Assembly (NCBI RefSeq): GCF_000337835.1
Contig: NZ_AOLM01000022.1
Location: forward strand, 1 to 64,000
DNA: 64,000 nt
DNA from: Haloferax sulfurifontis ATCC BAA-897
Lineage (GTDB): Archaea; Halobacteriota; Halobacteria; Halobacteriales; Haloferacaceae
Reading direction: 5' to 3'
Shown here: piece by piece, positions 21,636 to 26,375 of the stretch
Numbering within the stretch: position 1 is the first letter of the stretch
Layout: each line of letters opens with the position of its first letter
Notes under the pieces: generated by a model
Databases searched by the model: none
Told to the model about the DNA's origin: nothing
Seen by the model: only the letters and a program-made list of their open reading frames with translations
Translations under genes and position numbers: made by a program

Positions 21636-22061
21636 ATGCCCTCCAGACGCCAATTCATCGCCACAGCTGTCGGAACCGTTCCGCTTGCTGGCTGTTCGCT
21701 ACCCCCCGATGAGAGCGGGAATATTGAGGTTGGGAACCTCACAGAACAGAAAATTTGGGTCGAGATTACGATACGACGCGATGGCGGACTATTTTCGAAT
21801 CCCAAGCAAGTATACCGTAACAGAACCCAACAACTACCAGCGCACGGCTATCGCACAACTCAGACAGACGTTGTTCGCCCGGGAACGTACGACGTACAGG
21901 TCGAAGCGGAACAGATGGAAGAGGAGGAACGCCCCCAACGCAGTACGAAAGACCAGGAACGCCCCCAACGCAGTACGCAATGGGAAGTAACCGGAGAGAA
22001 AGGTCGATCTCTCATCATCCACATTCTAGATGGATTCGAGATAGAATTTTTCAAACAGTAA
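21636..22061 (+). CDS. Tat-exported lipoprotein, haloarchaeal
   Basis: A 141-residue protein. The N-terminus MPSRRQFIATAVGTVPLAGC combines a twin-arginine motif (SRRQFIA) with a lipobox (LAGC), so the mature protein should be anchored at the outer membrane face through Cys19. The body looks like a small beta-rich domain (NLTEQKIWVEITIRRDGG, VRPGTYDVQVEAE). Residues 98-114 hold a repeated ERPQRST unit encoded by a 23-base direct repeat. Codon use differs from the host chromosome, suggesting transfer. Function unknown. Confidence 0.7.
   Translation: MPSRRQFIATAVGTVPLAGCSLPPDESGNIEVGNLTEQKIWVEITIRRDGGLFSNPKQVYRNRTQQLPAHGYRTTQTDVVRPGTYDVQVEAEQMEEEERPQRSTKDQERPQRSTQWEVTGEKGRSLIIHILDGFEIEFFKQ
21925..21977 (+). 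repeat. Tandem 23-base repeat inside lipoprotein gene
   Basis: Bases 21925-21947 and 21955-21977 are identical (aggaacgcccccaacgcagt and three more bases), with a period of 30 bases, so the reading frame is kept and ERPQRST is duplicated. Likely replication slippage or recombination. Confidence 0.9.
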
Positions 22062-22652: not shown

Positions 22653-24269
22653 CTACGCCGCCCTCACGGCCGCACCGGTGACCGCGCTCCGAGTGGTTGC
22701 GTTCCTGTCGGCCTCGCGTTGTTCGGTCTCGTTCGTCCGCTTGACGACGTAGCGCTGGCCGACCATCGGGTCCAAGAGGCTGTCGACCGGGGCGCGGTCG
22801 TCGGTGAGAAGCGGCACGTCGTCGGTCGGTTCGTCGTTCCGGTAGGACGTGAGTTCGGCCGCGAGGTCGATGCCGATGTCGCGCCGCTCGTTGCGCGCCT
22901 GTAGCTCCTCGGCCGTCACGAGCGTCTCGTCTTTCGTCGCCACCACCTCGATGTTCTGGACGACGACGCTCCCCGCGGTGGGGAAGCTGTACACCTGCGG
23001 GTAGACCGACCGCATCGTCTTGTACTCCGCGCGGTAGAACTGCGAGGCCGGGCCGCTCGGCGCGGAGATGACGTTGGCGAACAGGACGCCGTCCTCGTCG
23101 AGGCGGTCCGAGGTGAGTTGCATGAACTCCTGTGTCGTCAGCTGAAACGGGACCTTGTCCTTCCGGTAGGCGTCGAGGACGATGAGGTCGTACGTCCGGT
23201 TCGTCTCCCGGAGGTACTGCCGGCCGTCCATCGTGTGGACGTTGAGCCGCGGCGACTCCTCGACGCCGAAGTACTCCTCGGCGACGGAGACGACCTCGGG
23301 GTCGAGTTCGACCACGTCGACGGTCACGTTCGGGTACTGCTCCAAGAACACGCGCGGGCCGGTGAACCCGCCGCCGCCGACGAACAGCACGCGGTCGATG
23401 TCGTCCGAGAGGAGGAAGGGGACGTGGAAGTACGAGGTGTAGTCGAAGACGTGCCGCGTCGGGTCGTCGAGGTCCATCGCGCTGTGGGGCTGGCCGTCGA
23501 GATAGAGCGTCCGCGTCCCGCCCGCGTCGGCGACGCGAAGCTCCTGATAGGCGGTCTGGGTGTGGTAGACGGTCGTGCCGCGAGAGTCGAGGCCGACGCC
23601 GCCGGTCAGCGACGCGAGGACGAGGATGGCCGCGATGCCGACGCTCCAGACCGCTTCGTCGCGGCCGATGTTCGGCCGGGCGAGCGCGAGCGCCGTCACG
23701 ACCGAGACGAGCCCGAAGACGAGCCCGATGTTGGTGACGCTCAGAGACGGGATGAGGAAATAGGTGGTAGCGAACGCGCCGATGATACTGCCGACGGTGC
23801 CGACGGCGTAGACGTGGCCCGAGGCCGCGCCCACGTCGGACCGCCCGGAGAGTTCCGCCGCGTAGGGGCTGATGAAGCCGAGGAAGTAGGTCGGCGGCCC
23901 GAACAGAAGCGTGATGGCGGGGAGCGACGCGAACCGGCTCGGGACGGGGAGTCCGGCGGTCGACTGGATGAACAGGTCGCCGAGGAGAATGACGCCCGCG
24001 ATGTAGGCGGCCGTGCCGATGAAGACGCGGGCGAGCGCGCCGTTCGACGCCCGTTCGGCCCGCTGTCCGCCCCGGTGATAGCCGAGGCTCAGCGCCGCCA
24101 GAAAGACCCCGATAATGCTCCCCCACGTGTAGATACTGCTACCGAACTCGGGAGCGACCATCCGCCCGGCGAGAATCTCCAACCCCATGCTCGTGACCCC
24201 GGAGACGAACACGGCGAGTTCGGGCCGCGTCATCCGGAGCCACGAAGAGGATGAGGGCGTCGATGCCAT
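22653..24269 (-). CDS. Membrane-anchored spermidine/spermine synthase-like protein
   Basis: A 538-residue fusion. Residues 1-225 contain seven to eight membrane helices (MTRPELAVFVSGVTSMGLEI onward). Residues 225-500 form a class I methyltransferase-like aminopropyltransferase fold: LYLDGQPHSAMD, VLFVGGGGFTGPRVF, VVELDPEVV, MDGRQYL and IVLDAYRKDKVPFQLTTQEF, with the acidic residue of the D-x-Y motif kept. Fused forms of this kind are common in haloarchaea and many bacteria but their polyamine activity is rarely shown. Starts with ATG 24269. Upstream is divergent from the Cas4-like gene. Confidence 0.88.
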   Translation of the reverse strand: MASTPSSSSWLRMTRPELAVFVSGVTSMGLEILAGRMVAPEFGSSIYTWGSIIGVFLAALSLGYHRGGQRAERASNGALARVFIGTAAYIAGVILLGDLFIQSTAGLPVPSRFASLPAITLLFGPPTYFLGFISPYAAELSGRSDVGAASGHVYAVGTVGSIIGAFATTYFLIPSLSVTNIGLVFGLVSVVTALALARPNIGRDEAVWSVGIAAILVLASLTGGVGLDSRGTTVYHTQTAYQELRVADAGGTRTLYLDGQPHSAMDLDDPTRHVFDYTSYFHVPFLLSDDIDRVLFVGGGGFTGPRVFLEQYPNVTVDVVELDPEVVSVAEEYFGVEESPRLNVHTMDGRQYLRETNRTYDLIVLDAYRKDKVPFQLTTQEFMQLTSDRLDEDGVLFANVISAPSGPASQFYRAEYKTMRSVYPQVYSFPTAGSVVVQNIEVVATKDETLVTAEELQARNERRDIGIDLAAELTSYRNDEPTDDVPLLTDDRAPVDSLLDPMVGQRYVVKRTNETEQREADRNATTRSAVTGAAVRAA

Positions 24270-24395: not shown

Positions 24396-25106
24396 ATGAG
24401 GAGACCACGCCGGTCCGTGTCCTCTCTCGTCGCCGCGTCCGACCTCGCCCGCGCCGCGTACTGCCCGCGACAGCTCTACTACGCCCGCCGCGACGACGAC
24501 CGAGCGCCGCCGGCCGCAGTCGCCGGCGTTCGCGCGCTCGCCTTCGAATACCCCGACCTGCTCGACGCCAGCGACGACGCGCTCGCGGCGCGGCCGATTT
24601 CGGTGTCGCCCGCGACGTACCGCGAGCGCCTCGCTCGACTCCGCGAGCGCGACGACTGGGATGCGCTCACCGACCCCGTCGCCCGCGACGAACTCCTCGC
24701 GGGGAAAGACTGCCGCGGCGTCGCGCACAAACTCGTTCGCCCGACCGACGACGAGAGCGAGCGACCGCCGGAGCCGGTTCCCTCGCTCGTCTCGCCGGGC
24801 GAACCCCCCGAACGCGGCGTCTGGGAACCCCAGCGCGTCAGGGCCGTCGCGCTGGCGAAGGCGCTCGCGTGGGAGCGCGAGGCGTCGGTTCCGCGTGCGC
24901 TGGTCGAGTACCCGGCGGTCGGCGTCGTCCGAACGGTCAGGCTCACGACACAGAACAAGGCGGCGTACCGGCGGGCGCTCCGCGTCGCCCGCGACCTCGA
25001 CTTCGTCCCGTCGCGACTGCGCGACTCCGCGAAGTGTGAGTCGTGTGCCTACCGGGAGCGTTGCGGGGTGAAAACGTGGTCGCTGTCGTCGTTGCTCGGT
25101 CGGTGA
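24396..25106 (+). CDS. Cas4-like PD-(D/E)XK family protein with degenerate active site
   Basis: A 236-residue protein with the cysteine frame of Cas4-like proteins: Cys23 in AAYCPRQLYYARR near the N-terminus and Cys214, Cys217 and Cys223 in KCESCAYRERC at the C-terminus, which should hold a 4Fe-4S cluster. The nuclease core is hard to find: where GxxD, ExK and Q are expected I read GVAHKL, SLVSPGEPP and RVRAVALA, so the metal ligands appear lost. No CRISPR array or cas gene is near. ATG 24396 or GTG 24417 may be the start. Role unknown. Confidence 0.8.
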   Translation: MRRPRRSVSSLVAASDLARAAYCPRQLYYARRDDDRAPPAAVAGVRALAFEYPDLLDASDDALAARPISVSPATYRERLARLRERDDWDALTDPVARDELLAGKDCRGVAHKLVRPTDDESERPPEPVPSLVSPGEPPERGVWEPQRVRAVALAKALAWEREASVPRALVEYPAVGVVRTVRLTTQNKAAYRRALRVARDLDFVPSRLRDSAKCESCAYRERCGVKTWSLSSLLGR

Positions 25107-25128
25107 CAGGTCGTCGCCGAGAGGGACG

Positions 25129-25731
25129 CTACGCGTCGGCGGCGTGCTCGTCGAGCCACGCCTCGATGTCGTCGGCCATCGAGCCGCGGCGGTGGACGAC
25201 GCCGCGGCCGGGGTCGACGACGGTGCTCTCGGTTCCGGGGGTCGTCCCGCCGTCGAGGACGACGGCGACCGCCTCCCGAATCTCGTCGGAGAGCTGTGAG
25301 GGGTGGGTGATGCTCCCGGTTCCGGAGCGGTTGGCGCTGGTCGCGGTGACGGGCGTCCCGGCCGCCCGAAAGAGAGAGCGCGCGAGTTCGTGGTCGGGGA
25401 CGCGGACGCCGACGCGGTCTTTCCCGGCGACGAGCGCGTCCGGCAGGCTGTCGCGTCGCTCCACGACGACCGTCACCGGGCCGGGGAGGAACCGACGCAT
25501 AAAGGCCTCCTCGCGGGCGTCGGCGACGACGTGCTCCAGCGCGGCGTCCACGTCGGGGAAGCCGGCGGAAAGCGGTTTGTCTCGGTCGCGGCCCTTGATG
25601 TCGAAGACGCGTTCGACCGCGTCGGCGTTCGTCGCGTCCGCGCCCATGCCGTAGACCGTCTCGGTCGGGTAGACGACCGCCTCGCCGCGGCGGACGGCGT
25701 CGGCGGCGCGCTGCACGTCGTCGTCGCTCAT
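25129..25731 (-). CDS. sua5: L-threonylcarbamoyladenylate synthase (Sua5/TsaC)
   Basis: A 200-residue YrdC-domain protein. It makes threonylcarbamoyl-AMP from threonine, bicarbonate and ATP for the t6A37 modification of tRNAs. Family motifs are VVYPTETVYGMGADA, FDIKGRDRDKPLS, FLPGPVTVV, VGVRVPDH, and TSANRSG. The extra C-terminal Sua5 domain is absent, so it is the short TsaC-like form. ATG 25731 precedes the first conserved helix; a longer upstream frame overlaps the redoxin gene and is not credible. Confidence 0.92.
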   Translation of the reverse strand: MSDDDVQRAADAVRRGEAVVYPTETVYGMGADATNADAVERVFDIKGRDRDKPLSAGFPDVDAALEHVVADAREEAFMRRFLPGPVTVVVERRDSLPDALVAGKDRVGVRVPDHELARSLFRAAGTPVTATSANRSGTGSITHPSQLSDEIREAVAVVLDGGTTPGTESTVVDPGRGVVHRRGSMADDIEAWLDEHAADA

Positions 25732-25868
25732 GTTCGAACTGACGCGCAACGGGCGAAAAAGCGTGACGAAAGCGTGACGAAACGGCGATTCCGCGCGTGG
25801 ACGAGCGCGCGGTCGGCGCGGCGGGGTCGAGAGACCGACCCGCGCGTCGTTTCGGCAGACGAGTCCGG

Positions 25869-26375
25869 CTACAGGTCGTCGAGGGCGTCCGCGATGCCCT
25901 CGTAGTCCGGGAAGTCCGGCCACTCGTCGGAGACCCAGCGGTACCGGACCGTTCGGTCCTCGTCGAGGAGGAACACGGCGGGGCGGTGTTCGGTGACGCC
26001 GGCCATCCCGTCGAGGTCGTGTTCGAGGTCGTAGTCGGCCGCGACGCCGGCCGCGGGGTCCGAAAACAGGCGGGCGTCCACGCCGCGCTCCTCAAGGAAC
26101 GACTTGTGCTCGTAGGGCGACGAGATGGAGACGCCGACCGTCTGCACGTCCGCCGGGACGCCGCGGTCGCGGAGCTCGTTCCAGACGTACGTCGCGGGGA
26201 ACGCGCCCGCCATCGTGTGGAACACGAGGAGGACGGGCCCGTCGTCGGTGAGGTCCGACAGGGAGGCGTCCTCCCAGAACTCCGCGTTGACCAGCGGCCG
26301 GGTGAAGTCTGGGGCGGTGTCGCCCACGGACGGCGCGTCGTGGTCGGGCAGGGAGACGACGTCGAACTCCGGCAT
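25869..26375 (-). CDS. Cysteine-free redoxin (AhpC/TSA-like)
   Basis: A 168-residue thioredoxin-fold protein of the peroxiredoxin superfamily: VGDTAPDFTRPLVNAEFW, LLVFHTMAGAFPATYVWNEL, VQTVGVSISSPYEHKSFLEE, and PAVFLLDEDRTVRYRWVSDE. At the place of the peroxidatic cysteine (PxxxTxxC) the sequence is GAFPATYVW, and the protein has no cysteine at all. It cannot work as a classical peroxiredoxin. Its ATG overlaps the stop of the glutaredoxin gene (TGATG), so the two are translationally coupled. Confidence 0.83.
   Translation of the reverse strand: MPEFDVVSLPDHDAPSVGDTAPDFTRPLVNAEFWEDASLSDLTDDGPVLLVFHTMAGAFPATYVWNELRDRGVPADVQTVGVSISSPYEHKSFLEERGVDARLFSDPAAGVAADYDLEHDLDGMAGVTEHRPAVFLLDEDRTVRYRWVSDEWPDFPDYEGIADALDDL

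Follow-up and report, generated by a model that had tools for sequence, protein, structure and literature searches.

The question raised by this locus is whether a protein that keeps the cysteines of a Cas4 nuclease and lacks the residues with which Cas4 cuts is still an enzyme, and what it may do if it is not. The window is the whole 64,000-nucleotide stretch of Haloferax sulfurifontis DNA that was analysed. A preliminary description, made from the letters alone, had presented the gene as a solitary Cas4-like Fe-S protein with a dead PD-(D/E)XK core and no CRISPR nearby. The reading frame and its start are as follows:

24396-25106, + strand: open reading frame of the predicted Cas4-fold pseudo-nuclease, 236 amino acids from ATG, model pLDDT 91.6
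24417-24419, + strand: probable true start codon, GTG (Val8), giving a 229-amino-acid protein

The frame is a real gene, since it has orthologues in relatives, is under purifying selection (median omega of 0.21 for 91 orthologue pairs in the genus), and has a GC content by codon position of 0.76/0.56/0.87. The genus orthologues are 73-89% identical, and the closest named relative among the matches listed is H. denitrificans with 92%. The coordinates first given for the 236-residue frame hold, except for the start, which homologues place likely at Val8. The start column of 30 orthologue rows contains V in 9, M in 5, a gap in 12, and another residue in 4, and residues 1-10 of the frame have a low pLDDT in the AlphaFold2 model.

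The same model has a pTM of 0.88. Superposition on Cas4, which had been proposed as a check, ranks a solved Cas4 first (7mi4_A, Z 16.5, rmsd 3.3, 177 aligned), followed by 8d3l_I (Z 14.6), Dna2 (Z 12), and AdnA (Z 11). Foldseek matches the model to 8d3l_J (E 1.3e-5). A profile of 44 relatives run against solved structures finds Cas4 8d3l (E 1.5e-7) and 7mi4 (E 1.9e-4), and a PDB search with the single sequence of the protein gave no match. Both curated Cas4 models leave the protein under their cut-offs, with 20.5 bits for PF01930 (cut-off 22.7) and 26 bits for TIGR00372 (cut-off 65); a distant member of the same clade, L064, of the type with D, K, Q, and Y retained and Glu missing, passes TIGR00372 with 76.8. 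The protein comprises a RecB-like core and a four-cysteine module, with one cysteine N-terminal and three C-terminal. The iron-staple nucleases Dna2, AddB, and AdnA have this fold and cysteine staple in common with it. In contrast, they are fused to helicases, and H, D, ExK, and Q all remain in the consensus of haloarchaeal Dna2.

The nuclease positions were read from a profile alignment to solved Cas4 (8d3l, 7mi4) and to 11 CAS-Cas4 proteins adjoining cas1 in relatives, in which ExK and Q are kept in 11/11. The rows compared are 58 from haloarchaea (56 distinct) and 56 more distant ones, 114 together. The sites in the window protein are:

24726-24728, + strand: His111 in place of the motif II Asp of Cas4, H in 51/58 haloarchaeal rows
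24786-24794, + strand: Leu131-Val132-Ser133 where Cas4 has ExK (motif III), acid at 131 in 0/114 rows
24840-24842, + strand: Arg149 at the QhXXY Gln position, R in 47/58 haloarchaeal rows

Thus D is replaced by H111, E by L131, K by S133, and Q by R149, and a second reading of the sequence found GVAHKL, SLVSPGEPP, and RVRAVALA at the expected D, ExK, and Q sites, as described before. The remaining haloarchaeal rows have S (2), Y (2), D (1), A (1), or Q (1) at position 111, where the motif II D is kept in 44/56 distant rows. Position 131 is occupied by L in 34 of the 58, V in 10, I in 8, F in 4, and M in 2, and acids within columns 128-134 occur in 6/114 rows, every one at position 128. Position 133 has S in 51, F in 5, T in 1, A in 1, and K or R in none, while K or R is found in 43 of the 56 distant rows. 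At position 149, R (47) is followed by H (6), K (2), W (2), and Q (1), and the distant rows have Q in 21/56. The QhXXY Tyr (position 153) is present in 0/58 haloarchaeal and 30/56 distant rows. The 80 named haloarchaeal loci are in line with this, with an acid at the E site in 0/80 and position 111 being D in 3 and E in 1. With D in 1/58, E in 0/58, and K or R in 0/58 rows, the window protein is not a lone variant among its homologues.

Changing Asp123, Glu136, Gln149, or Tyr153 of Pcal_0546 singly to Ala left that enzyme almost inactive, according to PMC4176176. Loss of catalysis is therefore expected for the Cas4-like clade, and the haloarchaeal protein is expected to lack catalysis by known Cas4 chemistry. 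Several other residues are kept instead of the nuclease motifs:

24729-24731, + strand: Lys112, invariant in 58/58 haloarchaeal rows, covarying with E171
24816-24824, + strand: family signature Gly141-Val142-Trp143 where the Gln helix begins, W in 57/58 haloarchaeal and 50/56 distant rows
24906-24911, + strand: Glu171-Tyr172 on strand 4, E171 in 58/58 haloarchaeal rows, Y172 in 58/58 haloarchaeal and 51/56 distant rows

GVW and Arg179 are near-invariant in the alignment rows. The conserved C-terminus (SLxSKFF or similar) was considered as a PCNA-binding (PIP) tail and rejected by eye, because it is spaced i, i+4, i+5 and lacks Gln; this hydrophobic spacing differs from the PIP spacing rule.

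The kept residues raise the possibility of a relocated active site, in which His111, Glu171, or other acids would leave the protein a nuclease. Catalytic residues of the PD-(D/E)XK superfamily are able to migrate, H111 is the rule in haloarchaea, and E171, invariant there, is absent from the 11 CAS-Cas4 rows. However, when 21,983 column pairs of the 56 distant rows are ranked by corrected mutual information, K112-E171 comes first, a rank inflated by shared ancestry, with several of the changes being single-clade events. E112 is paired with Y171 in 10/10 distant rows. Such covariation is that of a charge pair and argues against a relocated catalytic acid, and Glu171 was rejected in that role on this ground, ancestry-inflated as the rank is. 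E171 also directly precedes Tyr172 on one strand and should point away from the site, and Q stands at 171 in some distant rows with D and K retained (e.g., L065, L123). The other conserved acids (D16, D35, D105, E139, E144, E160, D202) lie off the D and E positions, and motif I shows no conserved His: columns 44-52 contain one in 12/114 rows, at scattered positions. The search among conserved acids thus gave no substitute acidic metal site in the sequence data, and a relocated site is very improbable.

In contrast to the nuclease residues, the cysteines are found where they had been reported at first:

24462-24464, + strand: Cys23, first cluster cysteine, in 58/58 haloarchaeal and 55/56 distant rows
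25035-25064, + strand: Cys214, Cys217, and Cys223, C-terminal cluster cysteines, each in 58/58 haloarchaeal rows and in 56, 56, and 55 of the 56 distant rows

The earlier reading of a dead PD-(D/E)XK core in an Fe-S-type protein outside CRISPR is supported, the putative cluster resting on these cysteines. They are among the most conserved features although catalysis is lost, which would suit a redox or iron sensor whose cluster state switches nucleic-acid binding. Such a regulator is unlikely, since the cysteines of related nucleases are structural staples (PMC3466216, PMC4176176), and the sole helix-turn-helix match falls far under its Pfam cut-off.

The Cas4-like gene occurs in 52/59 related genomes and in 46/47 good assemblies, with a single copy in Haloferax. 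In the phylum, the clade or its relatives were detected in 124/294 genomes, a count that includes a few weak hits outside the clade, such as the CAS-Cas4 of the same genome. A tree of 116 rows (112 of the clade and 4 of CAS-Cas4), built with the trait columns left out, separates the Cas4-like clade from CAS-Cas4. It comes from a quick search and has long branches, so that its deep order is unsure and its root rests on the four CAS-Cas4 rows. Judged from its groups, the clade appears to be vertically inherited in the archaeal phylum of the window, haloarchaea included. The D state needs 3 changes on this tree and the K state 3. Three rows from the order of the window (L067, L068, and L070) sit beneath the rest of the haloarchaea and still have D and K. 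The absence of E from all rows, together with D in 44/56 distant and 1/58 haloarchaeal rows, suggests, as the simplest story, that the motif residues decayed stepwise, with Glu going first and the loss of Asp and Lys following on more than one occasion.

The gene was not found in one 99%-complete genome (G018), of which two congeners have it; the glutaredoxin-like, peroxiredoxin-like, and Sua5 neighbours are kept at the site (L177). Another genome (G038) carries the orthologue in two halves (L173, L174) on contig C25, between about 257.3 and 291.4 kb; the break is close to codon 82, and about 33 kb separate the halves. A tyrosine-recombinase match lies between them at 288.9-289.3 kb, and the orthologue is apparently interrupted by an integrated element. 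Taken together, the missing gene and the split one show that the Cas4-like gene is not strictly essential. A decayed copy is also present at L069 (G043 contig C1, 1196.5-1197.1 kb), which no longer has the N-terminal CPR motif and has another residue in place of the last cluster Cys.

The surroundings of the gene agree with the preliminary description in that no cas gene is among the neighbours and a direct-repeat scan of the window revealed no CRISPR-like array. The word solitary does not extend to the genome, which has Cas1 with an adjacent intact Cas4 on contig C9, while the window gene is on contig C22. A non-catalytic partner of CRISPR adaptation, which competes with or replaces Cas4 on Cas1-Cas2, would fit this genome content and a fold nearest to the Cas4 of the adaptation complex. 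It is at odds with the lack of adjoining cas genes and with the occurrence of the gene in 32/38 relatives without cas1 (20/21 of the cas1-bearing ones have it), and is very improbable.

The neighbour downstream is a convergent gene:

25129-25923, - strand: Sua5/YrdC gene, PF01300 E 2.9e-51

The two genes stand tail to tail, 22 bp apart (25106-25129). A Sua5 cluster is near the Cas4-like gene at 22/41 loci and at 21/23 loci of the same order, and in much of the order, its deep branches among them, the two genes again converge closely, often about 20 bp apart. This would favour an RNA-directed activity or a part in tRNA modification, tied to Sua5. Convergent genes are, however, not co-transcribed, Sua5 lies within the stretch at 1/18 loci outside the order and about 3 kb off there, and G018 keeps Sua5 when the Cas4-like gene is missing. 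A role of this kind is unlikely. Outside haloarchaea the neighbourhoods differ lineage by lineage, with no conserved partner gene.

Three other associations were rejected. As an operon partner, cluster C3, which lies upstream and has no match in Pfam, is about 200 and 500 bases off in the two measured loci. Dna2 as a partner is near-universal in haloarchaea, which makes co-occurrence uninformative there; elsewhere the clade occurs, but the matches listed are to fragments or to the helicase portion. Full-length haloarchaeal-type Dna2 is restricted to the order of the window among the matches listed. A mobile-element gene was set aside as no plasmid or phage match was obtained from sets that may omit records near this genome.

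Further features of the window were recorded. The divergent neighbour (22653-24269, - strand) has a spermidine-synthase domain in its C-terminal half, over which a PADLOC mad2 match lies (E 1.1e-9), and a hydrophobic N-terminus as read by eye. A small open reading frame (21636-22061, + strand), whose start resembles a lipoprotein signal by eye, contains a tandem 30-bp repeat at 21919-21978. Two direct repeats of about 90 bp, about 104 bp apart, are located at 601-792.

The charge of the protein is the strongest hint at its role. The median pI of the Cas4-like orthologues is 8.74, or 8.66 with the N-terminus removed, and is then >7 in 25/30. Twelve Dna2-like open reading frames from relatives have a pI of 4.5-4.9. 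The haloarchaeal CAS-Cas4 proteins have 4.6-5.6 in 9/11, the two high values belonging to proteins with uncertain starts. The other conserved neighbour clusters have a median of 4-6 in 19/21, and the two basic ones (C4 and C9) are, by our own reading of the sequence, membrane-protein-like. The simplest role for a soluble haloarchaeal protein that is basic and has a nuclease fold would be to bind nucleic acid, even though the basic charge might instead serve protein or membrane contacts. Tyr172 aligns by eye with Tyr166 of Pcal_0546, and PMC4176176 describes that residue as essential and proposed to coordinate DNA. The structural or DNA-sensing role offered at the outset would fit the basic charge and Tyr172.

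Two precedents exist for a nuclease fold that binds. The nucleocapsid protein TP1 of the virus TTV1 is derived from Cas4; like the clade it is an inactivated Cas4 with motif III Glu lost, and its positive patch has been suggested to bind DNA (PMC4625639). In contrast, TP1 is a viral protein without the cluster, and its gene is split. The Cas4-like gene is cellular, near-universal in haloarchaea, and retains four cysteines; with its chromosomal context and no phage or plasmid match, it does not resemble a TP1-like nucleocapsid gene. RecC has a dead nuclease-like domain that forms a hoop for single-stranded DNA, and so resembles the protein in having a PD-(D/E)XK domain without catalysis, guiding DNA being the feature of RecC (PMC1185551). 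RecC is, however, part of RecBCD, whereas the Cas4-like protein is stand-alone and has four cysteines.

The basic charge and these two precedents favour a non-cutting DNA-binding factor. A little better than an even chance is given to the gene belonging to an ancient clade of solo-Cas4 pseudo-nucleases that bind nucleic acid, do not cut it, and act as a non-CRISPR DNA accessory factor. The more specific version, a Cas4-derived core factor for DNA ends or single-stranded DNA whose nuclease was retired early and whose catalytic residues eroded one by one (Glu before Asp and Lys) with the DNA-gripping parts preserved, is tentative and falls somewhat short of an even chance. The four cysteines would form an Fe-S staple, and the former nuclease groove, Tyr172, and the basic surface may grip single-stranded or end-bearing DNA; RNA as the bound partner is less likely than DNA. 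The grip would need neither metal nor cutting and could be accessory to a housekeeping DNA process rather than to CRISPR, in a mode like that of the dead nuclease-like domain of RecC as a guide of single-stranded DNA.

Compared with Cas4 (COG1468/PF01930, TIGR00372; CAS-Cas4 and solo-Cas4), the clade has the same fold, the same four-cysteine pattern, and a Tyr aligned with the DNA-contacting Tyr. In contrast, motif III Glu is absent throughout, and the haloarchaeal members also mostly lack Asp, Lys, Gln, and Tyr. Unlike CAS-Cas4, the members are outside cas loci, which corresponds to solo-Cas4, defined in PMC5704561 as archaeal Cas4 relatives outside cas loci with mostly vertical inheritance, the inheritance being judged here from tree groups. 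This survey takes motif conservation to suggest that all Cas4 proteins are active, and leaves the function of solo-Cas4 open. Dead Cas4 derivatives as such are already known, and a description of this clade was not found in searches of open-licence PMC papers.

For the family, the finding means that the known nuclease chemistry cannot apply to some of the archaeal solo-Cas4 proteins. Automatic Cas4 labels from TIGR00372 or PADLOC models can include some clade members, and if the reading is true, many of them may carry a Cas4 annotation and pass for active solo-Cas4. The genetically tractable Haloferax carries one clean copy. The clade would then parallel, in cells, both viral TP1 and RecC as a nuclease that has become a binding protein.
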